The notes under the pieces are model-generated. The model was given only the letters and a program-made list of their open reading frames with translations, was not told the origin of the DNA and did no database searches. The position numbers and the translations under genes are program-made. DNA of 64,000 nucleotides from Kutzneria chonburiensis (GTDB lineage: Bacteria > Actinomycetota > Actinomycetes > Mycobacteriales > Pseudonocardiaceae): assembly GCF_028622115.1 (NCBI RefSeq), contig NZ_CP097263.1, forward strand, positions 3,782,001 to 3,846,000, in the 5' to 3' direction. The stretch's first letter is position 1. Each line of letters starts with the position of its first letter. Shown piece by piece: positions 25,435-48,150 of the stretch.

Positions 25435-25687
25435 CGCTGAACTGCCCCGCGGGCACCAGGTCGGACACCGTGGCCCACAGCGAACCCGCGGTCGCGAAGG
25501 TCTCCTCCGTGATCAGCTCGTCCGGCAGCTCGAGGCCGAAGGTCTCCTCGAGGTCGGTCAGCAGCTGGACCAGGCCCATCGAGTTCAGGCCGAGCGCGGC
25601 CAGGTCGTCGGCCGCCGTGAAGTCCTCGTTCACCGCGTAGGGCAGGTGGGCCAGCAGGGTCTTGCGGAAGGAGCGCGGTATGTCCAT
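25427..25687 (-). CDS. Free-standing acyl carrier protein
   Basis: An 86-residue carrier protein; the phosphopantetheine serine is in LGLNSMGLVQLL. It is first in the minus operon ACP-ligase-ABC ATPase-ABC permease, and its stop region overlaps the ligase start by 8 bp. It is likely the acceptor for the ligase and a delivery point for a starter or side unit. Confidence 0.88.
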   Translation of the reverse strand: MDIPRSFRKTLLAHLPYAVNEDFTAADDLAALGLNSMGLVQLLTDLEETFGLELPDELITEETFATAGSLWATVSDLVPAGQFSDA

Positions 25688-33394: not shown

Positions 33395-34113
33395 GCCAAC
33401 TCCACGCCCGCGGCGTCCACGACCTGCGCCAGCAACCAGCCTTCACGCAGCGGTCCCTTGGTGTGCAACAGGATACGCTCGCCGTCGGCGATGTCGCCGG
33501 CGCTCAACGCCGCGTGCACGTCCAGCCAGCCGTCGCAGGCCCCGGCCCCGGTGAACCGCCACTCGACGTCCGAAAAGGACTCCGGAGAGCCCTCGCCGGC
33601 GTCCAGCACCCGCAGCGGACCCGGCCCCTGCCGCACCCGCATGCCCACGGTGGCGAAGCGACCGGTACCGACGCGAGCATCGGCGAACACCGGCTCGTCG
33701 CAGATCAAGACCGTTGCCACGGAAGGAATCGCCCAGTCCAGCAGCTCGAATCCCACGGTGCCACCGAGTTCGTCGAGATGCGTGATACCGATGTCGTCAC
33801 CGCGCCAGTCGAATTCGAGCACCATGCGGGCCAGCAGCGTGACCATCGGGTCGCGCAACGGGCCGGAGCGGATCAGGAACAGCGGCTGGTCGTCGTCGGG
33901 GACGCCGACCGCGGCCAGCGCGAGGTCGCTCAGCTCGGGCTCGTCGGAGTCGGCCGGGTTGACCACGATCAGGTGCTCAACGGGAATACCCTCCTGGATC
34001 GCCGCCTCCACCCGCTGCTTGGGCAGCAGGTCGTCCGGAAACGCCGTCAGCGGCAGGTAATCGGTGTGCGTCCGGACGGCCGCACACAAGCGAGTGATAC
34101 TCAGATCAGCCAT
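33391..34113 (-). CDS. Conserved-looking protein of unknown function in the peptide-linked operon
   Basis: 240 residues with no motif I can name. It has no signal peptide or membrane segment. There are predicted alternating strands (HLIVVNPADSDEPELSDLALAAVGV, PLFLIRSGPLRDPMVTLLARMVLEF) and a C-terminal GERILLHTKGP that faintly recalls the last strand of thiolase-fold proteins; this is too weak for an assignment. It is tightly coupled: the stop overlaps the AcpS ATG, and its start overlaps the dehydrogenase stop. Third-position GC is high, so it is a real gene. It is probably a partner of the ACP chemistry. Confidence 0.7.
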   Translation of the reverse strand: MADLSITRLCAAVRTHTDYLPLTAFPDDLLPKQRVEAAIQEGIPVEHLIVVNPADSDEPELSDLALAAVGVPDDDQPLFLIRSGPLRDPMVTLLARMVLEFDWRGDDIGITHLDELGGTVGFELLDWAIPSVATVLICDEPVFADARVGTGRFATVGMRVRQGPGPLRVLDAGEGSPESFSDVEWRFTGAGACDGWLDVHAALSAGDIADGERILLHTKGPLREGWLLAQVVDAAGVELA

Positions 34114-35242
34114 CAGCGTCTCCCGACTGGTAGCCGCGGGCCACGTGCAGGCGCTGGATGTTGCTGGTGCCGTCCATGAACTCGAAGGCCCGCACGTCCC
34201 GGGTCCACTTCTCCAGCAGCGGGTGTTCGATCAGGCCGGCCGGGCCGATGGACGCGATGGCCCACTGGGCCGTCCGCTGGGCCATCCGCACCGCGCTGAG
34301 CTTGGACGCGCTGGCGAAGTAGCCGCGCTCGGGGTCGGCGTCGAGCTTGGCCGCGGCCTGGAAGATCAGCTGCTTGCCGGCCTCCGCGCGGGCCAGCGCC
34401 AGGTCCACGCCCGGGGCGTTCTTCCGGTGCTCGGCAACGTATTCCGTGATCGCCATCGCGGTTCCCACGGCCGAGGCCGAGATCTGGATCCGCATGTTGT
34501 TCAACGTCTTGACCGCGCCCCAGATGCCACGCCGGGTGACCGGCAGGTGCTCGCCCAGCAGCATGTCCGCCGACACCGGCACGCCGTCGAACTGCAACTC
34601 GGACAGGTACGCGCCGCGCAGGCCAACAGTGTCCAGCCGCTGCGCGGTGAAACCAGAAGCCGGCACCTCGACCATCGCGGCCCGGATGGACAGCGCCGAC
34701 CGACCGGTACGGCCGAAGATCAGGCCGATGCCGCCGCGAGCGCCGTGGCCGATGTAACGCTTGGCCCCGTACAGCAGGTAGCCGCCGTTGCCGTCCTTTT
34801 CCAGCCTGGTCTGCATGTTCGTGGCGTCGCTGCCGTGACCGGGCTCGCTCATGGCGAAGAACGTCCAGGTCCGGCCGCCGTGCAGCCGGGTGTAGAACTT
34901 CTCCTGCTGCGCCGGGTTGCCGAGCAGGCTGACGTACACGCCGGCCAGCGCCGGGCACGGGCAGGCGAACATGGTGGACATGTCGCCGCGGGCCAGCTCG
35001 ACCATGCCGACGATGTCCTCCAGCACGGACTTCGCCTTCATCAGGCGGTATCCGCCGGACACCGACTCGCGGTACTCCGGAGGGGTATTGGACAGCCGGA
35101 TCATGGTGTACACGGGCGAATTGAAGTGCTGCTCCATGTCGTCCGGGTCGGCGTCGATGGACAGGGCCCGGGCGCGCATGTCCTCGACCGCGTCCCGGCA
35201 GTCGTCGCGCACGGCCCGCAGCCGCTCGTCGAGCTCGATCAT
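34106..35242 (-). CDS. Acyl-CoA dehydrogenase-like flavoenzyme, large partner (copy 1)
   Basis: 378 residues. The N-terminal and flavin segments are typical (TFFAMSEPGHGSDATNMQTRL, YIGHGARGGIGLIFGRT). The C-terminal FEFMDGTSNIQRL aligns with the family YEGTxxIQR, so the catalytic Glu is replaced by Asp. The same change occurs in the copy at 42179-43258. ATG 35242 overlaps the stop of the short partner gene. Family enzymes form alpha,beta double bonds; here the substrate is more likely carrier-bound than a CoA ester. Confidence 0.83.
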   Translation of the reverse strand: MIELDERLRAVRDDCRDAVEDMRARALSIDADPDDMEQHFNSPVYTMIRLSNTPPEYRESVSGGYRLMKAKSVLEDIVGMVELARGDMSTMFACPCPALAGVYVSLLGNPAQQEKFYTRLHGGRTWTFFAMSEPGHGSDATNMQTRLEKDGNGGYLLYGAKRYIGHGARGGIGLIFGRTGRSALSIRAAMVEVPASGFTAQRLDTVGLRGAYLSELQFDGVPVSADMLLGEHLPVTRRGIWGAVKTLNNMRIQISASAVGTAMAITEYVAEHRKNAPGVDLALARAEAGKQLIFQAAAKLDADPERGYFASASKLSAVRMAQRTAQWAIASIGPAGLIEHPLLEKWTRDVRAFEFMDGTSNIQRLHVARGYQSGDADG

Positions 35243-35835
35243 CACGCCGCTCCCTTCCGGTCGATCCAGGTGTTGGCCACCAGCGCCGACACGTACAGCG
35301 CCCGCACCGCGTGATCGGCGACGTAGCCCGCCGCACCGAACAGCTGCGTCACCTGCCAGCCCAGTTCGTCCAATGTGGAATGCAGGTCCGCCAGGGCATC
35401 CGGGGCCAGCGGCACCGACGCGTAGGCGCGGGCCAGCTCCAGCTCGGCGGCGACGTCGCCGACCGTGCCGGTGATCAGCTGCTTGCGGATCAGCGGCTCG
35501 TCGGCGACGGTCCGCTCGGACAGGTACGCGATGGCCTCGTCCAGCAGGCGTCGCACGGTGCCGATGCGCACGGCGGCCAGCAGCCGGCCGATCTCGGCCA
35601 GCGTGTAGTCCGCGGCCGGTCGTTCCCCCGGGCAGGCCAGGAACACGATGTCCTCGCGGTCGGCCAGGCTGTGCGTACGGATCTCCGCGCCATCGGCAAC
35701 GCTTGCGGCCGGCACGGCGGCAAAGCTTCCGGGCGCGGCGGCGGTGACCTCGGTGCCCGACAGCGCGGCGGCCAGGCCGGCGGCCAGACCCTCGTCCCGC
35801 GCGATCCGCTCGCACTGCTCGAGAACAGTGCTCAT
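35242..35835 (-). CDS. Short dehydrogenase-like partner protein resembling the acyl-CoA dehydrogenase C-terminal helical domain (copy 1)
   Basis: 197 residues. The C-terminal half (LLDEAIAYLSERTVADEPLIRKQLITG...LADLHSTLDELGWQVTQLFGAAGYV) reads like the all-helical C-terminal domain of acyl-CoA dehydrogenases. The flavin-binding N-terminal and middle domains are absent. It is paired with a full-size dehydrogenase downstream (1 bp overlap). A homologous pair lies at 41625-43258, so the pairing is conserved. Heteromeric dehydrogenases with split FAD sites are known in steroid degradation (FadE pairs); a comparable complex is my inference. Confidence 0.72.
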   Translation of the reverse strand: MSTVLEQCERIARDEGLAAGLAAALSGTEVTAAAPGSFAAVPAASVADGAEIRTHSLADREDIVFLACPGERPAADYTLAEIGRLLAAVRIGTVRRLLDEAIAYLSERTVADEPLIRKQLITGTVGDVAAELELARAYASVPLAPDALADLHSTLDELGWQVTQLFGAAGYVADHAVRALYVSALVANTWIDRKGAA

Positions 35836-36767
35836 GAGTCCTCCTCGACTTCGACGATCGCGGTGTGGAAGTACGCGCCCTGGGCCACCGAGACCAGGGC
35901 ACAGCGGTCACCGGGGCGCAGCCGGCCGGTGCGGTCGGCGTGGTCAAGCGCCATCAGCGCGTCCGCGCCGAAGTTGTGCCCGCACAACGGGATCAGGTCC
36001 AGCAGGACCTTCTCCCGCGGGATGCCGGCGCGGCGGCTCACGCTGCCCCAGAACATCCGGTTGGACAGGTGCGGCAGCACCCAGTCCAGCTCGTCCACGC
36101 TCAGGCCGACGGCTTTCACCGCACGATGCAGCGTGTTCACGGTCTCGTCGCAGCAGACCCGGCTGAACTCCTCGGCTTCTCGCGGCGACATCCGCATGTT
36201 GCGGTGGAACCGAAGATCACGGCTGGTCACGCCGCCGAGATACCGATAACGGCCCTGTGCCGCGACCGTGAGGCCGACAACCCCGTCGCCGCCGATGGCG
36301 ATGCCGGGGATCACGCGGGCCACGTCGTGCACGCTGCCGTGGTCGCCGCCCAGTACCAGCACCCGTTCCTTGGGGTAGCGGGCCAGGTAGCGCCGAGCAA
36401 AGTCCAAGGACCGCAACACCGACGTGCAGTTCACGTGCGACAGGCCGAAGAACCGGCTGCCGGACAGGCCGAGCCGGGCCCGGACCCGGTCCGGGAATCC
36501 GCCGCGCAGCCCGAACTCCTGCGTCAGCATGGTGTGCCCGTAGAGCACCAGGCCGGCCGTGCCGCCGTCGAGCGCGGCCCGGCCGGCCGCCACGAACAGG
36601 TCCTCGAGCTGTTCGTGGTCGGCCAGCGTCGGGCTCTCCCGCAGGCCGTGCACCTTGGCGAACATCTTGCGCTCCATGGCGTCCCGCCCGGCGCGCAGCA
36701 GGATGTCCTGCACCGGCTCGGACCGTCCGGGCAGCTGGACGGCCACTTTGGACAGTCCGATCGGCAT
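35832..36767 (-). CDS. KASIII-like (FabH-fold) thiolase-superfamily enzyme, second copy
   Basis: 311 residues, paralogous to 30578-31525 over its whole length. The cysteine is in HVNCTSVLRS, the histidine in LPHLSNRMFW, and the usual Asn position is again His (CGHNFGADALMALDHADR). It is translated from an ATG two bases after the ACP stop and overlaps the next gene by ATGA. Two paralogues in one operon may form a heterodimer or act on two different acyl-ACPs. Confidence 0.83.
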   Translation of the reverse strand: MPIGLSKVAVQLPGRSEPVQDILLRAGRDAMERKMFAKVHGLRESPTLADHEQLEDLFVAAGRAALDGGTAGLVLYGHTMLTQEFGLRGGFPDRVRARLGLSGSRFFGLSHVNCTSVLRSLDFARRYLARYPKERVLVLGGDHGSVHDVARVIPGIAIGGDGVVGLTVAAQGRYRYLGGVTSRDLRFHRNMRMSPREAEEFSRVCCDETVNTLHRAVKAVGLSVDELDWVLPHLSNRMFWGSVSRRAGIPREKVLLDLIPLCGHNFGADALMALDHADRTGRLRPGDRCALVSVAQGAYFHTAIVEVEEDS

Positions 36768-36769: not shown

Positions 36770-37033
36770 TCAGACCGCGGCCTTGGCGAAGCCGTGCTCG
36801 ATGTAGTCGGTCAGGCTGCCCACGGTCTGGAACACCTCGGGGCCCAGCTCGTCAGGGTCGATCTCCAGGCCGATGGTGTCCTCCAACGACATCAGCAGCT
36901 CGATCACGCTGGTCGAGTCCAGCGCCAGGTCCTCGAACAGGCGGGACTCCGGCGACAGCTCGCCGACCTCCTTGTTGAGCACGGCCGACAGGGCGACACG
37001 CAGGTGGGCGACGATCTCTTCGCGGTTCATCAT
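36770..37033 (-). CDS. Free-standing acyl carrier protein (BtrI-like position)
   Basis: An 87-residue carrier. Ser is in DLALDSTSVIELLM. It lies directly between the PLP decarboxylase (ATGA overlap) and the second KASIII-like gene. In butirosin synthesis an equivalent trio (ACP BtrI, ATP-grasp BtrJ, decarboxylase BtrK) makes 4-aminobutyryl-ACP from glutamyl-ACP; the same three families are adjacent here. It is the only carrier in this region with an intact phosphopantetheine serine. Confidence 0.88.
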   Translation of the reverse strand: MMNREEIVAHLRVALSAVLNKEVGELSPESRLFEDLALDSTSVIELLMSLEDTIGLEIDPDELGPEVFQTVGSLTDYIEHGFAKAAV

Positions 37034-38298
37034 GACTCCTTGGTGGTGTGCACGAGGATCTGGTGGCGGAGCAGGTCTTCAGCCTCGTCGCGGCGGCGCA
37101 CCAGGTGCGCCTCGCCGCCGGTGACGAGGACCTCGGCCGGGTAGCCGTGGCTGAGGAACAGGCCGGGCGAGGCCGTCGGGCCGTACGCGCCGGAGTTGAG
37201 GATGCCGATCAGGTCGCCGGCCTTGAGCGCCGGCAGCTCGGCGTGCTTGAGCACGGAGTCGTTGGGCGTGCACAGCGGACCGGTGACGTTCCACGACTCG
37301 GGCTCGCCCACGTCCTCGCGGTTGGACAGCAGCGCGGCCGGGAAGTTGCGCTTGACGAACGACCCGATGCCGACCGCCGCCATGTGGTGGTGCGTGCCGC
37401 CGTCGGCGATGGCGAAGCGCTCCCCCATCGACTCCTTGACGTAGCGCACACCCATCACGTACGTGCCGGCGCGGCCGGCCAGGAACCGCCCGGACTCCAT
37501 GATCAGCCGGGTCTCCGGGTGCGCGCCGACGAACTTGTCCAGCAGCGGGTTGATCTCGGTGGCCACGTCGACGGCGTCGATGTCCTGCTCGCCGTCGAAG
37601 TAGGCCACGCCGAGCCCGCCACCGATGTCCACGGTGTCCAGTCGGATGTTGCAGGCCTCGGCCACGCGTTCGGCCAGGTCGAGGATGTAGCGGGTGTTCT
37701 TGCCGACCACGTCCGCGTCGAGGATCCGGGTTCCCATGTATACCTGGATTCCGGCGACGTCAGCGTGCAGGTACTTCGCCGTCAGGTCGCCGGCGGCCAG
37801 CACCTGCTCCTCGTCGATGCCGAACTGGCGGGGCTTGCCGCCCATGGTCAGCCGCGAGCCGCTGATCGCCAGCGCCGGGTTGATCCGCAGCAGAACCCGT
37901 TGGTACACGCCCCATTGCGCGGCGATCCGCTCGATGTGGTCGAGCTCGTCGAAGGATTCGCAGACGATGGCGTACACGCCGGTCTCGACGCAGGCCCGCA
38001 ACTCGCACTCGCTCTTGCCGGGGCCGAGGAAGATGACGTCCTCGGGCGCGGTGCCGGCCTGCAACACGGTGCGAAGCTCCACCAGGGACGAGACCTCGGC
38101 CCGGGCGCCACCGGCCTTCAGCGCGGCGTACACGCTGACGTTCGGGTTGGCCTTGAGCGAGTAGAAGATCTCCAGCTTGGGGTGCAAGGCGTTGCGCAGC
38201 CCGGTGATCGTGTCGGTGAGCACGTCGCCGTCGTAGACGTAGAGCGGCGTGCCGAAGCGCCCGGCCAGCTCCTCGTACTCGATGCCCTGGATCCTCAT
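37030..38298 (-). CDS. PLP-dependent decarboxylase, BtrK/LysA-like
   Basis: 422 residues, fold type III. The PLP lysine is in FYSLKANPN (Lys49), the phosphate loop in DIGGGLGVAYF, and the active-site cysteine in GPLCTPND. Adjacent genes encode an ACP and an ATP-grasp protein, matching the butirosin BtrI/K/J set, where the decarboxylase acts on gamma-glutamyl-ACP. VinO/FlvO enzymes of macrolactam pathways are a second precedent for decarboxylating an ACP-bound amino acid. Only about the family level is shared with the decarboxylase at 570-1805. ATG 38298 overlaps the ATP-grasp stop. Confidence 0.86.
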   Translation of the reverse strand: MRIQGIEYEELAGRFGTPLYVYDGDVLTDTITGLRNALHPKLEIFYSLKANPNVSVYAALKAGGARAEVSSLVELRTVLQAGTAPEDVIFLGPGKSECELRACVETGVYAIVCESFDELDHIERIAAQWGVYQRVLLRINPALAISGSRLTMGGKPRQFGIDEEQVLAAGDLTAKYLHADVAGIQVYMGTRILDADVVGKNTRYILDLAERVAEACNIRLDTVDIGGGLGVAYFDGEQDIDAVDVATEINPLLDKFVGAHPETRLIMESGRFLAGRAGTYVMGVRYVKESMGERFAIADGGTHHHMAAVGIGSFVKRNFPAALLSNREDVGEPESWNVTGPLCTPNDSVLKHAELPALKAGDLIGILNSGAYGPTASPGLFLSHGYPAEVLVTGGEAHLVRRRDEAEDLLRHQILVHTTKES

Positions 38299-41129
38299 GA
38301 CTGGTTCCCCACCATTCTCTGCAGGCGTGCTTCGGCTTCCTGGCGCAGTTCCAGCGCCGCGTCGGCGCTCTCGGCGACGCAGATGGCGTACAGCCGGCCG
38401 TGGAAGCTGCCGTCGGTGGCGGCGGCGTTCAGCGTCGCGAAGTTGTTGACCAACACGCCGGTCGTGCGGCCCTCGTCGAGCAGCAGGTCCCCGAGCGCGT
38501 CGGCGACCTCGGTGAAGCTGTGCACGCGGGACGGGCGCAGTCCGAACGTGGCGGCGATGGCGTGCGCGCCGTCGGGGATGAACCGCTCGGCGATCCGGCT
38601 CTGGTAGGTCGACATGTTGAAGCGGGCGTTGATCTCCAGGCACGGGTAGAGCGTGCCGTCGGTGGCCAGCATGGCGTCCACGCCGACCAGGCCGAAGAAA
38701 CCTTCCTCGTGCAGCGCCTTGCCGATCTTCTGCACGGCCTCCTGGAGCTCGGCCGCGGCGACCGCCGGCAGCTCGACCGGGAAGCGGTGGCCCTGGTGCA
38801 CGCCGTCCTTGAGCACGGCCGCCTTCACGGTCTCGAAGCGCACGTTTCCGGTGCGGGACACCACGAACTGGTAGTTGAGGTCCTGGGCGTGTTCGATCCA
38901 CGTCTCGACGACGAGGTTGGCCGGTGCGTCCAGGCCGCGGCGCTCGATCAGCCGCAGCAGGCGGCTCGCCGCCTTCTCGTCGGCCACGACGACCATGCCG
39001 CGCCCGGACACGCCAAGGGATTCCTTGACGACCACGCGGCCGCCGTCGGCCAGCAGCTCCTCCAGCGCCGGACGGAGCTCACCGACCGTGTGCACGACAC
39101 GACCCGGAACCTCCCGGATGCCAATGCTTTCCACCAGCTGGCGGCTGAAGATCTTGCCGTTGACCGCCTTGCAGGTCTGGGCGGTGGTGCCGGCCAGCGG
39201 CAGCCCGGTCTCCTTGGCCAGCTCCTCCTCGGCCGCGGAGATGCCCAGCGGCATCAGGTAGGTGCGGCCGTCGGCCAGCTTGCGCAGCTCCTCCAGCAGC
39301 AGCGGGGAGTTGAGCGCATCCTCGGTGACCATCAGCTCGGGGCTGCTGACCTCGGCGTTGACCGTCCGGCCGGCGGCCGCGCCGAGGCGGCCGAGATAGG
39401 CCGCGAACTCGGCGTCCATGGCGGCCTTGAGCACGACCACGTCGCCGGTGTCGGCCAGCAGCGCGCCCATCTCCTCCATGCGGTTCACGGTCGCGCCGGC
39501 GAAGGCGATGCCGGCGCCGGGCAGCTTCGGCTCGCCGACCGCCCAGCTCCGCTCCACCTCGAAGTTGTTGACGAACACGAAGCGGGCGTGTTCGTCGCCG
39601 GTCAGGTCCTTCTTCAGTCGTTCGACGAAATTCATCGCTCTCCTCAGTTCGTCGGCGATCGTCCGCAGGGGCCGCGCGCCGGCGAGCCGGCCGAGCGACA
39701 CGTCGGTCCATCCCTTGTCACGTAACGCCCTGACCGTTAGCGGCAGCCGCAGGGCCCGGCCGCCGTTGGCCAGGTAGCTGGCGTCCGGGTCCACCCGGTC
39801 CAGCCCGTTGACCTCGGCCACGGCCTCGACCAGCGCTTTCACTGCCTCTTCGTCGGCGTTGACAACATCTGTTGTCACGGCCGGCGCGGCCGGCCGCTCG
39901 GAAAACGTCGGCGTGGCACCGGTCTGGAGCAGCGCCGCGTAGCTACGCAGGAAGTGCTCCACGTCGTCGCGGCTCATCACGTCGGCCATCGCCTGTAGTG
40001 CCAGCGTCGTGCCGTCGCACCACTCGTAGACCCGGAAGTAGGTGTCACCACCCGACTTGGCCCAGTGCACCGGCTCCGCGTTCCAGACAAAGCGATCACG
40101 CTTGGTCCGGCAGGATCTCGGCGCGTAGTTCAGGAAGTTCAGCTCCGACTCCACGCGCGGCTGGCCGGCCTGCGCCACCAGCTCGACGACCAGGTCGTAC
40201 GGCACGTGCGCGTACGCCATGGCCTCCTCGACCTGCTGCGCCGCACGCTTGATCACCTCGGCGAAGGGGCCGACGGTGTCGATCACCACCAGCGTCGGGT
40301 ACGAGGCGCAGCCGAGCACGTGCTCGAAGCCGCTGGACTCGCGCTGGCTGGTGTACATGCGGAACGCGACCTTCGGCTCGCCCGTGTAGGCGGCGACGGT
40401 GATCGCGTAGGCGGCGAGGTGCACGGCCGAGGGCCAGACCTTGTGCTCGGCGGCGATCGTCCGGGCCGTGGCCAGCAGCGACGGCACCGTGAACGACGCC
40501 GCGTGCGAGCCATTTTCGCCGGTCCGGCGACTGGCATAGATGTCGTGCGGCAGCTCGGAAGCCGTGCGCCGCCAGTGGTCGAGGGACGGTGTCAACGTCG
40601 CCTCGTGCCGGGCCAGGTCGACCGGCTGGTGCACGACCGGCGGCAACTGGATCGGGCGGCGCGCGATCCGCGCGGCCAGCACGGTGTCCAGCTCGGCGGT
40701 CAGCGTTCCCAGGCTGACGTCGTCCAGCGACAGGTGGTTGAACACCAGGTGCAGCCGGCGCACGGTGTCACCGTCGGCGATGACGCCCGCGCGGATCGGC
40801 CACTCCGTGGTGATGTCAAAGGGTTCCTCGGTCAGCCGCGCGATCAGCTCCGCCGGCCGGTCGCCGGCGACATGCACAGTCGGCGCCGCCGGCGGCTGCA
40901 CAACCTGTTGCGGCCAAGGCTGGGCCAACAGGTCGTAGGTGGTGCGCAGGATCTCGTGCCGGCGCACCAGGTAGGTCAGCGCCGACCGCACGTGGGCGAT
41001 CGTGGTGCCCTCGGGCACCGGGTGATTGATCGCGATGTGCATGTCGTGCCGGGCCTCGGCCGGCGTCTGGAGGTAGTGCAGCACGTGGTGCCGCTGCCCC
41101 CAACACAGGTCCGCGCTCTTCGCGACCAT
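38295..41129 (-). CDS. Condensation-domain-like / degenerate carrier / ATP-grasp fusion protein
   Basis: 944 residues. Residues 1-420 read as an NRPS-type condensation fold with HHxxxDG altered to NHLSLDD (Asn131, His132, Asp136); the general-base histidine is kept. Residues 430-495 follow a carrier-domain pattern, but the modifiable serine is Ala459 (ANGGRALRLP), so it cannot be pantetheinylated. From Met499 on is an ATP-grasp ligase (VVVKESLGVSGRGMVVVAD, LVVETWIEHAQDLNYQ, CLEINARFNMS). Met499 has its own GAGGAGAG site, so a separate ATP-grasp protein (38295-39635) may also be made, or two genes may have been joined. ATG 41129 follows GGAGG. Likely role: ligation of an amino acid to the ACP or to the peptide encoded divergently. 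Confidence 0.78.
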   Translation of the reverse strand: MVAKSADLCWGQRHHVLHYLQTPAEARHDMHIAINHPVPEGTTIAHVRSALTYLVRRHEILRTTYDLLAQPWPQQVVQPPAAPTVHVAGDRPAELIARLTEEPFDITTEWPIRAGVIADGDTVRRLHLVFNHLSLDDVSLGTLTAELDTVLAARIARRPIQLPPVVHQPVDLARHEATLTPSLDHWRRTASELPHDIYASRRTGENGSHAASFTVPSLLATARTIAAEHKVWPSAVHLAAYAITVAAYTGEPKVAFRMYTSQRESSGFEHVLGCASYPTLVVIDTVGPFAEVIKRAAQQVEEAMAYAHVPYDLVVELVAQAGQPRVESELNFLNYAPRSCRTKRDRFVWNAEPVHWAKSGGDTYFRVYEWCDGTTLALQAMADVMSRDDVEHFLRSYAALLQTGATPTFSERPAAPAVTTDVVNADEEAVKALVEAVAEVNGLDRVDPDASYLANGGRALRLPLTVRALRDKGWTDVSLGRLAGARPLRTIADELRRAMNFVERLKKDLTGDEHARFVFVNNFEVERSWAVGEPKLPGAGIAFAGATVNRMEEMGALLADTGDVVVLKAAMDAEFAAYLGRLGAAAGRTVNAEVSSPELMVTEDALNSPLLLEELRKLADGRTYLMPLGISAAEEELAKETGLPLAGTTAQTCKAVNGKIFSRQLVESIGIREVPGRVVHTVGELRPALEELLADGGRVVVKESLGVSGRGMVVVADEKAASRLLRLIERRGLDAPANLVVETWIEHAQDLNYQFVVSRTGNVRFETVKAAVLKDGVHQGHRFPVELPAVAAAELQEAVQKIGKALHEEGFFGLVGVDAMLATDGTLYPCLEINARFNMSTYQSRIAERFIPDGAHAIAATFGLRPSRVHSFTEVADALGDLLLDEGRTTGVLVNNFATLNAAATDGSFHGRLYAICVAESADAALELRQEAEARLQRMVGNQS

Positions 41130-41267: not shown

Positions 41268-41343
41268 TTTGGCATCCCCGGCGACGCCGAGAGGCCGAAT
41301 CGGGGAAATCAATTAACACACCAAGGAATGAGGCGTGTACACG

Positions 41344-41499
41344 ATGCCGAACACCAAGGCCGCGGTCAAGCAGTCCGTCAAGCAGAGCGTGAAGCAGTCC
41401 GTCAAGCAGTCGGTGAAGCAGTCCGTCAAGCAGTCGGTCAAGCAGAGCGTGAAGCAGTCGGTCAAGGAGTCCGTGAAGCAGAGCGTGAAGCAGTCGTGA
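41344..41499 (+). CDS. Small ribosomal peptide of eleven tandem VK(Q/E)S tetrapeptides
   Basis: 51 residues: a leader MPNTKAA, then 11 uninterrupted tetrapeptides, ten VKQS and one VKES (the ninth), ending exactly at the stop. Every third codon position is G or C, whereas the overlapping frames are not, which fixes the coding frame. Ser is written TCC, AGC or TCG and Val GTC or GTG in irregular order, so the repeat is kept at the protein level. GAGG at 41330-41333 serves ATG 41344; AAGGA at 41323-41327 could instead serve an in-frame GTG at 41335. It has no signal peptide and no cysteine. It is first in the plus operon, followed by strong hairpins, a layout seen for highly made precursor peptides. 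A modification scaffold or RiPP-like precursor with 12 lysines is the main hypothesis. Confidence 0.8.
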   Translation: MPNTKAAVKQSVKQSVKQSVKQSVKQSVKQSVKQSVKQSVKESVKQSVKQS

Positions 41500-41560: not shown

Positions 41561-41600
41561 CGGGGGAATGCGCCGAATCGTGTAGCGGCGCATTCCCCCG
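41561..41600. terminator. Strong 15 bp hairpin before the downstream operon
   Basis: A perfect 15 bp inverted repeat (41561-41575 with 41586-41600) with a 10-base loop lies between the peptide gene and the next ATG at 41625. There is no T-run. Together with the preceding hairpin it should reduce read-through, so the peptide would be made in excess over the enzymes, as in many RiPP operons. Confidence 0.75.
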
Positions 41601-41624: not shown

Positions 41625-42182
41625 ATGCGCCACACCATCGCGGAATGCGAACGGGCCGGCCACGACGACGGCCTTTCCGCCGGCCTCGCACTCACCGGCG
41701 CCGCCCTCGACAACGCGCCCGGCCAGGTGGCCGCGGTGCCTTCCGATTCCGTGCCTCCGGGCGCGGAAGTGCTGCGCGCGGAGCAGGGCATCAGCTTCGT
41801 GCGCACGAAACCCTGTGCCGGCCCCGAGTCGACGGCGGTCGCCGCCCGGCTGGCGGGTGTCCGGTTAGGACTGACCCGCCGGCTCGCGCAACGGGCCATC
41901 GCGCACTTGTCCGGACGTACGGTCGGCGGTGAGCCGACCATCGGCAAACAGTTGGTGCAGGGCACTTTGGCCGACGCACACGTGGCCACCGAGGCCGCTC
42001 GCCGAGCCTTGTCCGTCGCCGGCGACTGCCCCGACACCGTACGGGATGTGCACGAGCGTCTGACCACAGTGGACTGGGAGCTGGCGAAGTTGTTCGGGGC
42101 CAGCGGCTTCGTCGACGGTGGCGCGATGTTCGACGTGCACCTGTCCCGCCTCATGGCCAGTTGCTGGGTCGGTGCGTCATGA
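41625..42182 (+). CDS. Short dehydrogenase-like partner protein (copy 2)
   Basis: 185 residues, paralogue of 35242-35835. The shared stretch is RLAQRAIAHLSGRTVGGEPTIGKQLVQG, then LTTVDWELAKLFGASGFVDGG. It lacks the flavin-binding domains of an acyl-CoA dehydrogenase. GGAGGAG precedes ATG 41625. Its stop overlaps the ATG of the full-size dehydrogenase, repeating the gene pair found in the minus operon. The first 80 residues are poorly conserved between the two copies. Confidence 0.72.
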   Translation: MRHTIAECERAGHDDGLSAGLALTGAALDNAPGQVAAVPSDSVPPGAEVLRAEQGISFVRTKPCAGPESTAVAARLAGVRLGLTRRLAQRAIAHLSGRTVGGEPTIGKQLVQGTLADAHVATEAARRALSVAGDCPDTVRDVHERLTTVDWELAKLFGASGFVDGGAMFDVHLSRLMASCWVGAS

Positions 42183-43258
42183 CTTCGCTGGACGAACTCC
42201 AGGGCCTGGCCGCCGAACTGGCGGCCGAGCTGCGGCCGCACGCGCTGGCCGTGGACGCAGGCGTGGTGCCGGACATCCCCGCGCTGGACGTCATCCGTGA
42301 CATCGCCACGCCGCCCGAGTTTCGGGCCTCTGACCTGCCCAAATGCGCCGAGACGTACACCGAGACGTGCCTCGCGCGCACGGCCGCCAACATCGAGCTC
42401 TCCCGTGGTGACGCCGGCGTGCTCAACATCTGCCGTGCCCCCTCGCTCGCCGGGCTGGCTGTCGACGCCCTGGGCAGCCCGGCGCAGCAGGAAGCGTTCT
42501 ACCGTGTGCTGGCCGACGAGCGGCCGTGGACCTTCTTCGGCATGACCGAGCCGGGCTGCGGCAGCGACGCCACCGCCATGGAAACCCGGCTGGACAAGGA
42601 TTTCCGTCTGCACGGCGGCAAGAAGTACGTGGCCAACGCGGCGCGCGGCGGCATCGGCGTCGTCTTCGCCCGCACCGGTCCGACTCCGCTGTCCATCCGT
42701 GCGGTGGTCGTCCGCAACCCGAGCCCGGGTTACACCGGTCGCCCGCTGACGATGTTCGGCCTGCGCGGCGCCGCTCTTGGTGAGATGACCTTCGACGGTG
42801 TCGAGCTGTCGCGGGAAGCCTTGCTGGGCGCACACTTGCCCGCCTCACGGCGTGGACTGTGGGGCGCCGCACGCACGTTCAACGTGATGCGCCTCCAGAT
42901 CGGCGCTCAGGCCCTCGGCGTCGCCCTGGCCATCAGCGACTACGTGCACGCCCTCCGTCCACAGTGGAATACCCTGATGACGTCCAGACTGGAAGCGGCC
43001 AGGGAGTTGCTGCTCGACTGCGCGCACGACGTCGACAACAACCCGGACGACCGCCGTGCCCCGTCGATCGGCAAACTGCACGCCACGAACCTGGCCGTGG
43101 AGACCGCGCGCTGGGCCGAGTCGGCGCTCGAACCCGGTGCGCTGCTTGACCATCCGCTGCTGGAGAAGTGGTGCCGGGACGTGCACGCCTTCGAGTTCAT
43201 GGACGGCACCAGCACCGTCCAACGCCTCACCATCGGGACTGGCCATGACGACAACTGA
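42179..43258 (+). CDS. Acyl-CoA dehydrogenase-like flavoenzyme, large partner (copy 2)
   Basis: 359 residues, similar throughout to 34106-35242. Motifs are TFFGMTEPGCGSDATAMETRL, YVANAARGGIGVVFART and the C-terminal FEFMDGTSTVQRL with Asp at the usual catalytic Glu. It is encoded with the short partner and 14 bp into the first GNAT gene. Having one dehydrogenase pair in each divergent operon suggests two successive oxidations or two different carrier-bound substrates. Confidence 0.83.
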   Translation: MTSLDELQGLAAELAAELRPHALAVDAGVVPDIPALDVIRDIATPPEFRASDLPKCAETYTETCLARTAANIELSRGDAGVLNICRAPSLAGLAVDALGSPAQQEAFYRVLADERPWTFFGMTEPGCGSDATAMETRLDKDFRLHGGKKYVANAARGGIGVVFARTGPTPLSIRAVVVRNPSPGYTGRPLTMFGLRGAALGEMTFDGVELSREALLGAHLPASRRGLWGAARTFNVMRLQIGAQALGVALAISDYVHALRPQWNTLMTSRLEAARELLLDCAHDVDNNPDDRRAPSIGKLHATNLAVETARWAESALEPGALLDHPLLEKWCRDVHAFEFMDGTSTVQRLTIGTGHDDN

Positions 43259-43739
43259 ACTGCCGCACTGGTCGAGCCGGCCCTACTCGGACGCCGACCG
43301 CGACGCCGTGCTGGCCCTGTTCACCGAACCCGACTTCTTCTTCCGCACCGGGGATCCCGACACGCGGCCGGAGTGGGAGATCCTGGAGCTGCTCGACGAG
43401 GACACGCACGTGCTGCTGGCCGACGGCGAGGTCGTCGGCCTGTACGCCGTCGAGTCCGAGGCCAACAACGCCTGCCACTACAGCATGCAGTTGCGGCTGC
43501 GGGCCTCGGCCCCGCTGCGGTGGTGGCGCGCCGCGTTCGAGGAACTGGTGCGCGCCAACCGATGGCGGCGCGAGGTCGTGCGGCTGGCGCTGCGCATCGA
43601 CGAGTTCGACGACCGCGGCCTGGCCTTCGCCCGTGCCGCCGGCCTGCGCGAAGAGGGCACGTTGGCCGCGGTCACCGTGCACGACGGCAGCCGCTACGGC
43701 TCCGTGTCGTTCGCCCGGATCTGGGAGCCGACCTCATGA
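43245..43739 (+). CDS. GNAT-family acyltransferase 1
   Basis: 164 residues of the RimJ/RimL-like GNAT type. It has DTHVLLADGEVVGLYAVE as the central strand pair and the C-terminal AAGLREEGTLAAVTVHDGSRYGSVSFARI. It starts at an ATG inside the end of the dehydrogenase gene and ends four bases into the next GNAT gene. GNATs acylate amino groups; Lys side chains or the N-terminus of the repeat peptide are the attractive acceptors here, using acyl-ACP as donor as in GNAT-containing lipopeptide RiPP systems. The acceptor is inference. Confidence 0.8.
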   Translation: MTTTELPHWSSRPYSDADRDAVLALFTEPDFFFRTGDPDTRPEWEILELLDEDTHVLLADGEVVGLYAVESEANNACHYSMQLRLRASAPLRWWRAAFEELVRANRWRREVVRLALRIDEFDDRGLAFARAAGLREEGTLAAVTVHDGSRYGSVSFARIWEPTS

Positions 43740-44191
43740 GACTGCGTGGATACCGCCGCGGCGACGCCCACCTGCTCGCCGGCCCCTGGCTGCCCGGTGA
43801 GCTGCTCGGACTGCCGATGATCGACTGGCCGATGCTGGCCGAGCCCACCACCGTGCCCGCGCCGACCGACCCGAGCCAGGAGCTGTGCATCGCGTCCGGA
43901 CTGGGCTTCGTGCGCTACACCGAGCTCGACTGGGTGCACCGCCGGGCCCGCGTCGAGATCGGTCTGCAGGCCCCGCACAGCCTCGACGTGCTGCTGAAAA
44001 CCGTGGTGGCGCACGGGTTCCTGACGCTGAATCTGAGCCGCCTGTACGGCTGGGTGACGCCGGTGCTCGACCCGCCCGTGGGGCTGCTGACCGATGTCGG
44101 CTTCCAGTGCGAGGCAACGCTGCCGGAGAGCGCGTGGCTGGACGGCCGGCCGGTGGACCGGGAGATCTGGGGAGTTGTGCGCAATGACTGA
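43736..44191 (+). CDS. GNAT-like acyltransferase 2
   Basis: 151 residues. The order of segments is that of a GNAT (ELCIASGLGFVRYTELDWVHRRARVEIGL, a short helix LLKTVVAHGF, then DVGFQCEATLPESAWLDGRPVDREIWGVV). The acyl-donor loop is poorly conserved. ATG 43736 overlaps the stop of the previous gene (ATGA). It may be a subunit or a specialised paralogue acting on a different position of the same acceptor. Confidence 0.7.
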   Translation: MRLRGYRRGDAHLLAGPWLPGELLGLPMIDWPMLAEPTTVPAPTDPSQELCIASGLGFVRYTELDWVHRRARVEIGLQAPHSLDVLLKTVVAHGFLTLNLSRLYGWVTPVLDPPVGLLTDVGFQCEATLPESAWLDGRPVDREIWGVVRND

Positions 44192-44630
44192 GATCCTGCG
44201 GCTCGATGTGGACGCCGCCGTCGCCGAGCTACGGGCGTCCGGCGACTCCGCGCGGGGTTTTCTCGGGCTCGATCCCGTGACCCAGAACGATTCCCTGCTC
44301 GCCGCCGAGCTCAAGGCGTTGGCGGCGCAGCTGTTCAGCGCCGGCGAGGCACTGGTCGGTTTCGCCCCCAACACGGATCAGCCACGCCAGGCGTACGTGG
44401 CCAGCACGTCGGCGGACCCGGAACCGTTGCGGGCGCTGCTGGAATTCCTGGCGACGTACCAGCGCTGCACCACGTTCGTGGCCATGGTGCCGGTGGATGC
44501 CGAGGGCGGCAAGGGGCTCGAGGCGTGTGGCTTCGAGCGGGCCGGGTTGCTGCCGCAGCACCGGTGGCAGAACTACGACTGGCAGGACGTCCTGGTCTAC
44601 GTGGGGAGGGCGGACTCGTGCCGTTCATGA
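44184..44630 (+). CDS. GNAT-like acyltransferase 3
   Basis: 148 residues. The N-terminal half is divergent. The C-terminal GLEACGFERAGLLPQHRWQNYDWQDVLVYVGR matches the final strand-helix-strand of RimJ-type GNATs (GFxxEGxLRxHxxxxGxxxDVLVY). It overlaps its upstream neighbour by 8 bp and its downstream neighbour by 13 bp. It could be a degenerate or non-catalytic member; I cannot tell from sequence. Confidence 0.65.
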   Translation: MTEILRLDVDAAVAELRASGDSARGFLGLDPVTQNDSLLAAELKALAAQLFSAGEALVGFAPNTDQPRQAYVASTSADPEPLRALLEFLATYQRCTTFVAMVPVDAEGGKGLEACGFERAGLLPQHRWQNYDWQDVLVYVGRADSCRS

Positions 44631-45202
44631 CGGTCCGGCACTTCACCGAGGCGGACATCCCGATCCGCACGGAGCTGTTGCGGGAGAACAAGTACCAGAC
44701 CAACCTGAACGACTTCGCGATGTCGGCCGACGACCGCGCGCTGGCCGACGGTATGCAGCATACGATCGACGCGCAGCATCACGTGAAGCGGCTGTTCACC
44801 ATGTGTGGCTCCAAGGGCCAGGTGGTCGGCTTCTCGTGGATCACGTCGATCGACTGGCGCAGCCAGGCCTGCGAGCTGTCTTTCGCGGTGCTGCCCCGGT
44901 ACCGCAGCGGTTTCGGCTTCAAGGCGGTGGAAGCGGCGCACGAGTACCTGCGCGAGCAGCTGCACATGGACGTGATCATCAACCAGGTGTTGTCGCACAA
45001 CACGATGATGCTGTCGGCCGCCGAGTTGGAGGCCAACGCCCAGGTGCGCTCGGAGTTCGACTCGTACACGGTCGGCCAGTGGCGCACAGCCTGCTACTGG
45101 ACCGTGACGCGCGATGAGGTGCGTGACCGCAAGCAGCGGGAAATGGCGCGGCGGCAGGAGATCGCGGACCGGGTCCGAGCGGGAGTGCGGGAGCTGTCGT
45201 GA
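44618..45202 (+). CDS. GNAT-like acyltransferase 4
   Basis: 194 residues. VVGFSWITSIDWRSQACELSFAVLPRYRSGFGFKAVEAAHEYL is a recognisable GNAT core with the pyrophosphate-loop helix. VLSHNTMMLSAAE follows, where most members have an N-x-x-(A/S) helix, and there is a long basic C-terminal helix (DRKQREMARRQEIADR). GTG 44618 has GGGAGGG at good spacing; ATG 44627 overlapping the previous stop is the alternative. It is the fourth GNAT-type gene in a row, and its stop overlaps the protease start. Confidence 0.75.
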   Translation: MPFMTVRHFTEADIPIRTELLRENKYQTNLNDFAMSADDRALADGMQHTIDAQHHVKRLFTMCGSKGQVVGFSWITSIDWRSQACELSFAVLPRYRSGFGFKAVEAAHEYLREQLHMDVIINQVLSHNTMMLSAAELEANAQVRSEFDSYTVGQWRTACYWTVTRDEVRDRKQREMARRQEIADRVRAGVRELS

Positions 45203-48150
45203 CCGGATATCTGCGGTTCCCGACCATCGCCGGCGACACGGTCGTCTTCACCTGCGAGGACGACCTGTGGTCGGTGCCGGTCGGCGGCGGGACCGCGCGA
45301 CGGCTGACCGCCGGCGTGTCCGAGGCCAGCCGGCCCCGGCTGTCGCCCGACGGTTCGCTGGTGGCATTCATCGGCGCTGATGACGGACCTTCCGAGGTGT
45401 ACGTCATGCCCGCTCATGGCGGGCCATCGCGCCGGTTGACGTACCAGGCAGCGCGGTGCGTGACGGTCGGTTGGCATCCGGGGACCGGCGAGATCATCTA
45501 TGCCTCGACGGCTGCCCAGCCGGCCGGTTTCGGGTTCCGGCTGTTCGCGGTGTCGCCTTCCGGTGGCGTGCCCCGGCTGTTGCGTCCCGGTCTGGCCGAC
45601 GCGGTGACCTTCGGGCCGGACGGCCGCGTGGTCGTCGGCCGGAACACCGCGGATCCCGCTCGGTGGAAGCGTTATCGCGGCGGCTTAGCCGGTGAGCTGT
45701 GGACAGCGTCCACTGTGGACGGGCCGCTGACGCCGTTGTTGTCGCTGCCGGGCAACCTGGCCAACCCGTGCTGGGTCGGCGACCGGATCTTCTTCATCAG
45801 CGATCACGAGGGCGTCGGCAATGTGTACTCGTGCCGACCGGACGGCGCCGACCTGCACCGGCACACCTCACACGGGGAATATTACGCCCGTAACCTTACA
45901 ACCGATGGCTTACGTCTGGTGCATCACGCCGGCGCGTCGCTCTTCCTGCTGGACGAGCAGCTTCCCGTCGAGGTCGCCGGTTCACGGTCGCAGTGCGCCC
46001 GCCGGATCGTGTCCGCGGCCGACCACCTCGAGGACGCTCGCCTGAGCCCCGACGGCAAGTCCGTGACCCTGACCGTGCGCGGGCAGGCGTTCACCATGGC
46101 CCCGCAGACCGGCCCCGTGCGTCAGCACGGGGCTGCTTCCGGTGTACGCCATCGGCTCGTGGACTGGCTTCCCGACGGCCGGCTCGTGGCGGTCGTCGGC
46201 GACGACTCGGCCGACGAACGCTTAACTGTACTCGGTGGTTCAGATACGCCCGTGCCCGGCACGGCCACCGAGCTCGCCGCGTCACCTCGCGACGGTCTCG
46301 TAGCCTTCGCCACCAACCGGCAGCAGCTGTGGGTCGTCGACGATGGGCTTCCCCGCCTGGTGGACCACAGCCCGCACGAGCGCATCGAGGACCTGGCCTG
46401 GTCCCCCGACGGCCGTTGGCTGGCGTACACCTACCCCACCTCGCCCCGCACCTCGGCGATCAAGGTCTTCGACGCCGAACTGAACCAGGCAGTACAGGTC
46501 ACTGCACCGGTGCTGCGCGACTCCCGGCCGTCCTTCGACCCCAGCGGCCGGTACCTGTACTTCGTCGGACAGCGCGATCTGGCCGTCGACCACGACCAGG
46601 TGCAGTTCGACCTGGGCTTCCCGTACGCCGGCCGGCCCTACCTGATCACCTTGCGAGCCGAGGAGCCGCCCCCGTTCGAACACTCCTCCCCCGCCCCGCT
46701 CACCGACGTGGAGATCGACTTCGCCGGCATCGAGCGCCGCGTGCTGCCGCTGCCCGTGCCGGAGGGGCGCTACGCCAAGATCGTCGGCCTGCCCGGCAAG
46801 GTGTTGCTGCACTCCGTGCCGCTGGCCGCGCCCGACATCGCCCAGCCCGACGCCACTCCAGACGGCATCGTCTCGGTGGTCGACCTGGTCACCGGCGAGG
46901 TCGAGTCCGACGTGCTCAGCCCCGTCGACGACGTACACGCCAGCAACTCGATGATCCTCTACCGGCACGAAGGCACCGTGCACATGGTGCCGTCCGATGA
47001 CCTCGACGGAGAGGGCATCGAGCTCGATCTCAAGCGCCTCCAGGTCTCCGTCCAGCCGGAGGCCGAGTGGCGGCAGATGTTCCGGGAGACCTGGCGCTTG
47101 CAGCGCGAGGGTTTTTGGGACGCCGCCATGAACGGCGTGGACTGGGATGCCATGTACGACCGGTATCTCAGGCTGCTGGATCGCGTGGCCACTCGGGCCG
47201 AGCTGTCCGACCTGCTGTGGGAGCTCCAGGCCGAGCTCGGCACTTCGCACACGTACGAACGCGGCGGCGAGTACCGGCCGACTCCCAGCCACGGTCAGGG
47301 TTTTCTCGGCGTGGACTGGGAATCCGATTGGCGCATCGGCAACATCCTGCTCGGCGATCCGTGGAATCCCCGTGCCACTTCGCCGTGCAACCGCCTCGGC
47401 GCCGACATCCGCGCCGGCGATCAGGTCGTCGCCATCAACGGCCGGCCGATGTCCGCCGAACTCCTTGTCGGACAGGCTGATCGCCAGGTCGAGCTGACCG
47501 TCCTCCGTGACGGCACCAGCCGTTCCGTCACGGTCACCGCCCTGGCCGACGAATCCGCCGCCCGCTACCGCGACTGGGTGTCGGCAAACCGTTCTGCTGT
47601 AAGGGAATTGTCCGACTGCCGCCTCGGCTACATCCATGCTCCGGACATGAACGCCAGCGGTTACGCCGAGTTCGTGCGGGCCTTCCTGACCGAGTTGGAC
47701 TGCGAGGGCCTCATCGTCGACGTGCGATTCAACGGCGGCGGCCAGATCGCACCAATGTTGTTGGACCGCTTGTCCCGCAAGCGTTTCGGCACCGAGTCCG
47801 GCCGTTGGGGGCGGCCCACCCCGTACCCGTCCGAGGCTCCTCGTGGTCCGATGGCGCTGTTGGTCAACGAGCACACCGGTTCCAACGGCGAGATCTTCGC
47901 GCAGGGCTTTCGTTCGCTCGGGCTCGGTCCTCTCATCGGCCGGCGGACGTGGGGCGGCGTGATCGCCACGTGGCCTCGGCACTCGCTTGTCGACGGCACC
48001 GTCACCACCCAGCCCGAGTTCCGTTACGTGCTCGACGGGCAGATTCTGGAGAACCGCGGCGTGGTGCCCGACATTCAGGTCGACAACGAGGACCGGCAGT
48101 TGGCCACTGCCGTCGCCGCGCTCGTCCCGACCCCGGTGCCCGCGCCGTGA
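45199..48150 (+). CDS. Tricorn-type protease (beta-propeller, PDZ, S41 peptidase)
   Basis: 983 residues. The N-terminal two thirds carry WD/TolB-like propeller repeats (RPRLSPDGSLVAFIGADDG, ARLSPDGKSVTLT, EDLAWSPDGRWLAYTYP). They are followed by the core LGTSHTYERGGEY (Ser-His of tricorn), a PDZ-like segment (GADIRAGDQVVAINGRPM) and the S41 nucleophile loop NEHTGSNGEIFAQGF. Tricorn proteases cut peptides into very short pieces. As the enzyme encoded with a tetrapeptide-repeat peptide, it is the obvious candidate to release modified units; that link is inference. No signal peptide, so it is cytosolic. GTG start overlaps the fourth GNAT gene. Confidence 0.9.
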   Translation: MTGYLRFPTIAGDTVVFTCEDDLWSVPVGGGTARRLTAGVSEASRPRLSPDGSLVAFIGADDGPSEVYVMPAHGGPSRRLTYQAARCVTVGWHPGTGEIIYASTAAQPAGFGFRLFAVSPSGGVPRLLRPGLADAVTFGPDGRVVVGRNTADPARWKRYRGGLAGELWTASTVDGPLTPLLSLPGNLANPCWVGDRIFFISDHEGVGNVYSCRPDGADLHRHTSHGEYYARNLTTDGLRLVHHAGASLFLLDEQLPVEVAGSRSQCARRIVSAADHLEDARLSPDGKSVTLTVRGQAFTMAPQTGPVRQHGAASGVRHRLVDWLPDGRLVAVVGDDSADERLTVLGGSDTPVPGTATELAASPRDGLVAFATNRQQLWVVDDGLPRLVDHSPHERIEDLAWSPDGRWLAYTYPTSPRTSAIKVFDAELNQAVQVTAPVLRDSRPSFDPSGRYLYFVGQRDLAVDHDQVQFDLGFPYAGRPYLITLRAEEPPPFEHSSPAPLTDVEIDFAGIERRVLPLPVPEGRYAKIVGLPGKVLLHSVPLAAPDIAQPDATPDGIVSVVDLVTGEVESDVLSPVDDVHASNSMILYRHEGTVHMVPSDDLDGEGIELDLKRLQVSVQPEAEWRQMFRETWRLQREGFWDAAMNGVDWDAMYDRYLRLLDRVATRAELSDLLWELQAELGTSHTYERGGEYRPTPSHGQGFLGVDWESDWRIGNILLGDPWNPRATSPCNRLGADIRAGDQVVAINGRPMSAELLVGQADRQVELTVLRDGTSRSVTVTALADESAARYRDWVSANRSAVRELSDCRLGYIHAPDMNASGYAEFVRAFLTELDCEGLIVDVRFNGGGQIAPMLLDRLSRKRFGTESGRWGRPTPYPSEAPRGPMALLVNEHTGSNGEIFAQGFRSLGLGPLIGRRTWGGVIATWPRHSLVDGTVTTQPEFRYVLDGQILENRGVVPDIQVDNEDRQLATAVAALVPTPVPAP

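Follow-up and report, generated by a model that had tools for sequence, protein, structure and literature searches.

Why does a short open reading frame that encodes little more than one tetrapeptide repeated eleven times stand between two divergent gene series in Kutzneria chonburiensis? The frame lies in a stretch of 64,000 nucleotides, here called the window, between a minus-strand operon and a plus-strand series comprising a split acyl-CoA dehydrogenase (ACAD), four small proteins labelled 'GNAT1', 'GNAT2', 'GNAT3', and GNAT4, and a tricorn protease homologue. Its translation, MPNTKAA-(VKQS)8-VKES-(VKQS)2-stop, confirms the 51-residue frame of the original prediction, with ten VKQS units and one VKES unit. 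The DNA of the array is a 12-base tandem repeat bearing scattered synonymous changes, and it tops the nine Tandem Repeats Finder rows for the window (10.9 copies, score 157). The codons are scrambled, as had been claimed: valine is encoded by GTC (6) and GTG (5), serine by TCC (4), TCG (4), and AGC (3), and lysine by AAG in 12 of 12 cases. All 51 third positions are indeed G or C, but this carries little weight, since the other called genes of the window have GC3 values of 0.85-0.97 and the full GC3 alone is thus unremarkable. The ATG is considered the conserved start because the GTG codon at 41335 is replaced by GCG in one congener. The proposed position at the head of an operon appears to fit the gene order, the next plus-strand genes starting at 41625, 42179, 43308, 43736, 44184, 44618, and 45199.

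Table. Features of the repeat-peptide locus in the window (positions of the window, which is 64,000 nucleotides long)
Feature	Position	Strand	Basis or remark
KAS III-like protein b	30578..31525	-	domain scan
AMP-forming ligase / adenylation enzyme	31522..33015	-	domain scan
Conserved protein, no family match	33391..34089	-	domain scan
Split ACAD, first pair (small subunit 35242-35835, large subunit 34106-35245)	34106..35835	-	domain scan
KAS III-like protein a	35832..36767	-	domain scan
Stand-alone acyl carrier protein (ACP)	36770..37030	-	domain scan
PLP-dependent decarboxylase, Orn/DAP/Arg fold	37030..38298	-	domain scan
Condensation domain fused to PreATP-grasp/ATP-grasp ligase (first gene of the operon; separate genes in Amycolatopsis)	38295..41129	-	domain scan
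Possible upstream GTG start, adding 3 residues (GCG in congener G003)	41335..41343	+	congener alignment
K4 peptide ORF, MPNTKAA plus 11 VK(Q/E)S units	41344..41499	+	translation; found in 3 congeners (orthologues) and 5 other genera (homologues)
Strong hairpin, 4 bases past the K4 stop codon	41504..41544	+	RNA folding
Second strong hairpin, ahead of the next gene	41561..41600	+	RNA folding
Split ACAD small subunit, second pair	41625..42182	+	not beside the peptide in Amycolatopsis loci
Split ACAD large subunit, second pair	42179..43258	+	domain scan
'GNAT1', conserved small protein, GNAT membership unproven	43308..43739	+	homologue scans
'GNAT2', conserved small protein, weak GNAT similarity	43736..44191	+	homologue scans
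'GNAT3', conserved small protein, no GNAT match	44184..44630	+	homologue scans
GNAT4, GNAT acetyltransferase-type protein	44618..45202	+	curated Pfam GNAT cut-off passed
Tricorn protease homologue, catalytic Ser/His/Ser/Glu present	45199..48150	+	alignment to 1k32

The ORF, termed K4, occurs in four of the seven Kutzneria genomes searched. Its frame, start, and 12-base phase are preserved, and the cluster and its surroundings are syntenic across all four. The peptides have 11 (window), 11, 10, and 9 units, and within these 41 units Val, Lys, and Ser are invariant, the third residue being Gln save for Glu twice and Arg once. A GNAT4 search of 297 family genomes matched nine, five of them outside Kutzneria, and four of these five contain an in-cluster short ORF of other sequence and equal period: MSKEASKVASKVASKVASKEASKEASKEASKVASKEA and similar sequences in three genomes of one genus, and an ORF beginning MAKSAAKAAAKSAAKVAAKVAAK in the fourth genome. 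The GNAT4 profile scan of the GTDB collection (84,980 species) returned 13 loci, comprising two of Kutzneria, seven of Amycolatopsis, one each of Actinophytocola and Kibdelosporangium, and two of streptomycetes (Streptomyces sp. ICBB 8177 and Streptantibioticus parmotrematis). A K4 ORF is present within the flank at 11 of the 13; Actinophytocola is the twelfth, with its K4 ORF beyond the flank, and the 74 kb of the Kibdelosporangium locus have none. The two streptomycete peptides are 93 and 97 residues long.

A K4-peptide profile search matched 22 of 390 family genomes, of which five were rejected because their frames are longer or the pattern is absent. Stand-alone K4 ORFs therefore remain in 17 genomes (4 of Kutzneria, 11 of the genus of the Amycolatopsis loci, 1 of Actinophytocola, and 1 of a further genus), and each of the 17 adjoins the condensation or ATP-grasp gene of the cluster. 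For three of the Amycolatopsis-genus genomes (G743, G752, G759), 1.5 kb was read on each side and the first two small proteins are visible. The ORF of the further genus reads MDKIAVKEANKVAVKDAVKDAVKEAVKEA, with Lys at 7/7 register sites by eye; its readable sequence ends ahead of any GNAT. The retention of frame, start, and phase in four of seven Kutzneria genomes and the cluster linkage of all 17 family ORFs indicate that K4 is more than a chance reading frame. The original prediction depended on homologous loci that retain the repeat, and these exist in three other Kutzneria genomes and five further genera. The check it named was a search for VKQS-type repeats near GNAT, tricorn, and ATP-grasp genes in other actinomycetes; linked K4 ORFs are found, but the VKQS wording is confined to Kutzneria.

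Some other matches are not K4 peptides. Four extra-genus matches of the first peptide search over 60 genomes (G007, G023, G051, G055) are low-complexity stretches. Longer proteins with AKDS- or KQST-type repeats are encoded at G023:C25:14162-14308 and G085:C110:12321-12422, with no cluster gene in the 3 kb read. In a class-wide sample, the GNAT4 profile matched the window's own genome only (1/394), with eight first-look candidates per genome scored in the rows inspected. None of the four K4 peptides scanned, from 13 distinct ones, lies above a Pfam or NCBIfam cut-off.

The tetrapeptides outside Kutzneria include SKVA, SKEA, and AKAA, with Lys still at every fourth residue. Fifteen peptides, 13 of them distinct, were counted, with 9 to 24 lysines each. 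In the 13 distinct peptides Lys occupies 165 of 165 in-register sites and no off-register site. The residue before it (K-1) is S 85, V 50, A 26, or T 4 times, the residue after it (K+1) is V 54, Q 39, E 35, A 21, S 11, I 4, or R 1 times, and K+2 is A 122 or S 43 times. The lysine codon is AAG in 183/183 cases across the 15 ORFs. Because K-1, K+1, and K+2 vary whereas Lys is constant, VKQS is only a Kutzneria dialect. The earlier stress on regularly spaced lysines is upheld; the stress on VKQS and on eleven Ser side chains is not, as neither the motif nor Ser is conserved beyond Kutzneria, and the serines are therefore not the point. Net charge is not preserved among K4 peptides, the Amycolatopsis forms having several Glu, and by our reading helix propensity is not preserved either (AKAA versus VKQS). 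Both the peptide family and the selection for a lysine at each fourth position, flanked by small residues, are well supported.

Five equal-length Amycolatopsis orthologues have 18/4/36 differences at codon positions 1/2/3, a tally summed over 10 pairwise comparisons whose pairs are not independent. The openness of the frame by itself proves nothing, since alternative frames of K4 ORFs are frequently open as well. The order of silent codons seemed frozen among Kutzneria. Selection at the nucleotide level was rejected as unproven after comparison with neighbour genes: the array has 1, 4, and 0 silent Val/Ser differences where these genes lead one to expect 4.0, 3.5, and 3.5, and its silent-codon conservation reached P<0.05 in 2 of 13 comparisons and not in the other 11. 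Among the Amycolatopsis pairs, the silent sites of K4 are not significantly more conserved in 9/10. The third-position bias of changes and the lack of a consistent silent-site excess uphold the claim that selection acts on the peptide and not on a DNA repeat.

A long hairpin is present behind the K4 ORF, within 110 bases of the stop codon, in all 15 loci folded (the region of Kutzneria sp. 744 is 88 bases, ended by N). The 331-base window region folds with a z of -2.28 against shuffles, a comparison that applies to the window region and not to the 15 loci. Hairpins of this kind often follow precursor genes with high expression, but this one could be a partial terminator. A tRNA-like element was considered for the first hairpin, whose loop is T-arm-like; ARAGORN detected neither a tRNA nor a tmRNA anywhere in the window, and the element is kept as a hairpin. 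Rfam gives a single match over the window, away from the K4 hairpin. This match, ASpks (RF01782) at 5765-5839 (-), lies inside a polyketide synthase (PKS) gene and probably reflects conserved PKS coding sequence, not an sRNA. The gap between the K4 ORF and GNAT1 in Amycolatopsis sp. A133 (G314:C22 ~239890-240150, minus) contains several palindrome copies around CTTTCACGTGAAAG, and similar palindromes occur in some of its relatives.

Wherever the flank is readable, K4 is accompanied by the four small proteins and the tricorn homologue, and the order of GNAT1-4 is the same in the Kutzneria, Amycolatopsis, Actinophytocola, and streptomycete loci. The description of these proteins as four GNATs holds in part. 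GNAT4 passes the curated cut-off, although a search of solved structures gives it no relative at E<=0.01. The support for 'GNAT2' is weak: 2 of 10 members have GNAT similarity (best E 0.012), and its profile matches that of GNAT4 weakly (E 0.0024, probability 12%). 'GNAT1' and 'GNAT3' are unsupported as GNATs, with similarity in 1/12 members (E 0.11) and 0/9 members, respectively, and no informative match in profile comparison against GNAT4.

The predicted tricorn protease is borne out by a nearly full-length match to the Thermoplasma enzyme 1k32 (E 1.8e-136). The residues aligned with S745, H746, S965, and E1023, to which we assign the catalytic roles, are present in 15/15 rows, representing 14 genomes (L062 and G157 are the same locus). 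The position aligned with D936, which we take to be the source of the basic-P1 preference, is Glu in 15/15 rows; it is thus still acidic, and if that role is right a basic P1 should be favoured. Directly after the active-site Ser, the three Kutzneria rows have Asn where all other rows, and Thermoplasma, have Asp. Each of the four Kutzneria genomes with K4 has a single tricorn copy, and the three Kutzneria genomes without K4 have none at E<=1e-60.

The minus-strand operon contains an ACP, a PLP decarboxylase that is presumably BtrK/VinO-like, KAS III-like proteins, and an ACAD. These four kinds of gene are found together in the Kutzneria, Amycolatopsis, and Actinophytocola clusters, which bears out the earlier claim of ACP-linked chemistry. 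In the available part of the bolagladin report, the proposed route starts from an aspartyl-ACP, on which a BtrK-like enzyme carries out the decarboxylation and a KAS III homologue the N-acylation, before desaturation by an acyl-CoA dehydrogenase yields N-acyl-dehydro-beta-alanyl-ACP; deletion of the dehydrogenase gene gives dihydro products (PMC7756342). For autucedines and olenamidonins, the sections available propose that a KAS III homologue joins acyl-CoAs to dehydro-beta-alanyl-ACP, and place the acyl-Dba unit on the side-chain amine of diaminopropionate (PMC11204786). In gene content, the minus-strand operon resembles this N-acyl-dehydro-beta-alanyl-ACP route. By analogy, the window cassette is likely a Dba-type acyl-ACP supplier, because its genes match the bolagladin and autucedine routes and a related cassette exists at a second locus. 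The acceptor of the Dba-type unit would then be the K4 peptide and not an NRPS.

The second Dba-type cassette lies in the same genome at L030:2074-17084 (G000:C1:3330073-3345083). Its relation to the window cassette is 66% for the decarboxylase and 57% for the ATP-grasp protein. Its neighbours are SbnA/SbnB diaminopropionate genes, adenylation domains, and a carbamoyltransferase-KAS III fusion, and no K4 peptide, GNAT1-4, or tricorn match is found in its 28 kb. It looks like a kutzneridine/enamidonin-type NRPS cluster (kutzneridine as in the available part of PMC12843350). Elsewhere in the window, a decarboxylase and a ligase at 570-1805 and 23959-25434 pass TIGR03099/TIGR03098, which carry exosortase-system names, and an ACP lies at 25427-25687. 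These three genes may form a set that supplies a beta-amino-acid starter to the PKS at 2042-17386.

The components vary between loci. All long-flank loci have the peptide, the four small proteins, the tricorn homologue, the ACP, and the ACAD small subunit; the large subunit is unmatched at L057 and L059, where the sequence ends nearby. The two streptomycete loci contain the peptide, GNAT1-4, tricorn, ACP, and ACAD, have no KAS III match in 20 kb, and have only a 35-36% relative of the decarboxylase. Neither of the two streptomycete genomes has an ATP-grasp match at E<=1e-20; an apparent one at L056 and L060 is an alignment artefact spanning the condensation domain. The ATP-grasp ligase, named earlier as a cluster gene, is present in the window but belongs to the divergent operon and, having no match at that cut-off in the two streptomycete genomes, is unlikely to be a universal modifier. 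The lack of ATP-grasp and KAS III matches also means that the streptomycete acyl group may differ. In Actinophytocola the condensation domain is not matched in 61 kb. The Kibdelosporangium locus (L063/G199) has ATP-grasp, decarboxylase, ACP, and relatives of GNAT1/2/4 (30-34%), with no GNAT3 or tricorn match in 74 kb; these relatives occur without a K4 peptide, so that GNAT1/2/4 may have other acceptors. Away from its K4 cluster, at G803:C12:158784-160139, the genome of the A. vancoresmycina locus (L054) encodes a further ATP-grasp relative (47%).

The peptide gene adjoins a gene cluster of antibiotic type in several soil bacteria. Its rigidly spaced lysines and the enzymes retained next to it suggest a ribosome-made lysine rack for the attachment and later release of small molecules. 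The fuller proposal, that K4 is a leaderless all-repeat scaffold or precursor whose lysines take ACP-borne acyl units and which the tricorn protease then cuts, is plausible, its probability falling a little short of even. An amino acid would be loaded onto the stand-alone ACP and decarboxylated, and the ACP-bound unit would be N-acylated by a KAS III-like enzyme and desaturated by the split ACAD, so that the acyl unit of the window cluster would probably be N-acyl-dehydro-beta-alanyl. The lysine epsilon-amines of a presumably highly expressed K4 would provide many identical acceptors (9 to 24 per peptide, and 7 in the genus with MDKIAVKEANKVAVKDAVKDAVKEAVKEA). The GNAT-type group at 43308-45202 may move the acyl unit to lysine, with the condensation domain as second candidate. 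The tricorn protease would chop the loaded polymer into pieces of about four residues with one lysine each, for which one cut per unit suffices. Against this, an acylated lysine is not ideal as a basic P1 residue, and three of the four 'GNATs' are, by homology, not securely GNATs. The components unmatched in the streptomycete and Actinophytocola loci, the GNAT1/2/4 relatives of Kibdelosporangium, and the Asn behind the active-site Ser in the Kutzneria tricorn rows also speak against it. The original idea of a scaffold or multi-core precursor is thus partly supported, by the lysine spacing, the ACP chemistry, and the tricorn protease, but not by the serines, the VKQS motif, or a set of four GNATs. 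It is more doubtful that K4 stands for a third class of carrier in biosynthesis, distinct both from phosphopantetheine thioester carriers and from C-terminal amide carriers. Such a carrier would be a ribosomal polymer with one lysine per tetrapeptide, loaded many times over with ACP-built acyl units through amide bonds, and a tricorn protease devoted to it would break it down into uniform pieces of four residues.

Lysine could instead be kept as the P1 residue of the protease. The array would then be a multi-core RiPP precursor that is first cut into tetrapeptides, and the PGM1-like ATP-grasp ligase or the condensation domain would join an acid to their N-termini, as for pheganomycin. The PreATP-grasp domain, the acidic S1 position, and the variable number of units in a constant tetrapeptide phase agree with this, but K-1 and K+1 vary inside single non-Kutzneria peptides, so the cores would be a mixture, and the two streptomycete genomes with K4 have no ATP-grasp at E<=1e-20. 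Both this order of events and this role for lysine are considered rather unlikely. It is improbable that the peptide serves the producer as an internal decoy or buffer, binding or neutralising the toxic product by means of lysine amines that act as sacrificial nucleophiles or as counter-ions. Lysine is the sole invariant residue of the repeat, and the hairpin behind the ORF would suit a high copy number; the linked tricorn protease and the strict period are, however, left unexplained, and net charge is unconserved, with several Glu in the Amycolatopsis forms.

The short ORF, its recurring Lys codons, and the hairpins just ahead of the next gene also recall an attenuation leader, in which ribosome speed at Lys codons would govern the hairpin and the downstream operon. 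This is quite improbable, as the ORF can run to 97 codons, a quarter of them for Lys, and is then far longer than the tandem-codon attenuation leaders known to us. An attenuator needs neither the exact period nor the absence of off-register Lys, and the downstream genes differ among genera. It is very improbable that K4 is a small basic peptide of structural or nucleoid type, or that the array is a DNA/RNA repeat element that codes only incidentally. AKAA-type units resemble histone-H1-like tails, and repeats can act as binding arrays, but among the 390 family genomes K4 ORFs are found only beside the cluster (17/17). A DNA/RNA element also disagrees with the bias of changes to third codon positions, with silent-site conservation that has no consistent excess, and with the folding of the array RNA, which is like that of shuffles (z 0.09).

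If the lysines of K4 are loaded as the acyl-scaffold reading proposes, the biosynthesis of small molecules would make use of a ribosomal polymer as a scaffold with many sites, and a bacterial tricorn protease would gain a dedicated biosynthetic substrate. K4 systems can be found by a trivial pattern, a Lys at every fourth residue near GNAT4 and tricorn genes. Among the papers listed first by literature searches that covered few subscription journals, no title or abstract opening describes such a peptide or system.

K4 shares with RiPP precursors in general a short encoded peptide conserved beside putative modifying enzymes, which would act on it. It has no leader region: in Amycolatopsis, Actinophytocola, and the streptomycetes the first repeat starts as early as residue 2-3, and in Kutzneria nothing but MPNTKAA comes before the repeats. 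The PreATP-grasp domain is one that we take to be the PGM1 domain. As far as the available parts of the sources describe them, three ribosomal systems are comparable. Pearlins, like the proposed K4, have small-molecule chemistry take place on a carrier peptide of ribosomal origin, with an amide as the link and proteolysis as the release step (PMC9303977), but they carry a single C-terminal residue per carrier with tRNA-dependent loading, whereas the 13 distinct K4 peptides have nine or more internal lysines; no Pfam match to a PEARL (LanB-like peptide aminoacyl-tRNA ligase) is present among the window genes scanned. In selidamides and nostolysamides, Lys/Orn side chains of a ribosomal peptide undergo GNAT-type acylation (PMC13060382), as is proposed for K4, whose cluster has one clear GNAT. 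Their precursors combine a leader with a lanthipeptide core, and in the npu case it is Lys1 that is acylated, whereas K4 is all repeats without leader or Cys. Pheganomycin shares a PreATP-grasp/ATP-grasp ligase and a small ribosomal peptide (PMC8939145). In that system PGM1 joins a small core peptide to an acid, whereas in the K4 family a PGM1-type ligase is not a constant companion of the peptide, being unmatched in 2/2 streptomycete genomes. From its gene context, K4 would work like the carrier or multi-core precursors of these systems, but it lies outside the full definition of each, since it has no leader and no lanthipeptide features and its ATP-grasp gene is not universal. The autucedine/olenamidonin/enamidonin and bolagladin cassettes have, like that of the window, an ACP, a PLP decarboxylase, a KAS III-like N-acyltransferase, and an acyl-CoA dehydrogenase (available parts of PMC7756342 and PMC11204786). 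The autucedine and bolagladin products described there are NRPS-made, whereas the cassette of the window is linked to a lysine-repeat peptide made by the ribosome, to GNAT-like proteins, and to a tricorn protease; if K4 is such a third class of carrier, the system would be a ribosomal counterpart of the NRPS-made enamidonin-type acyl-Dba lipopeptides.
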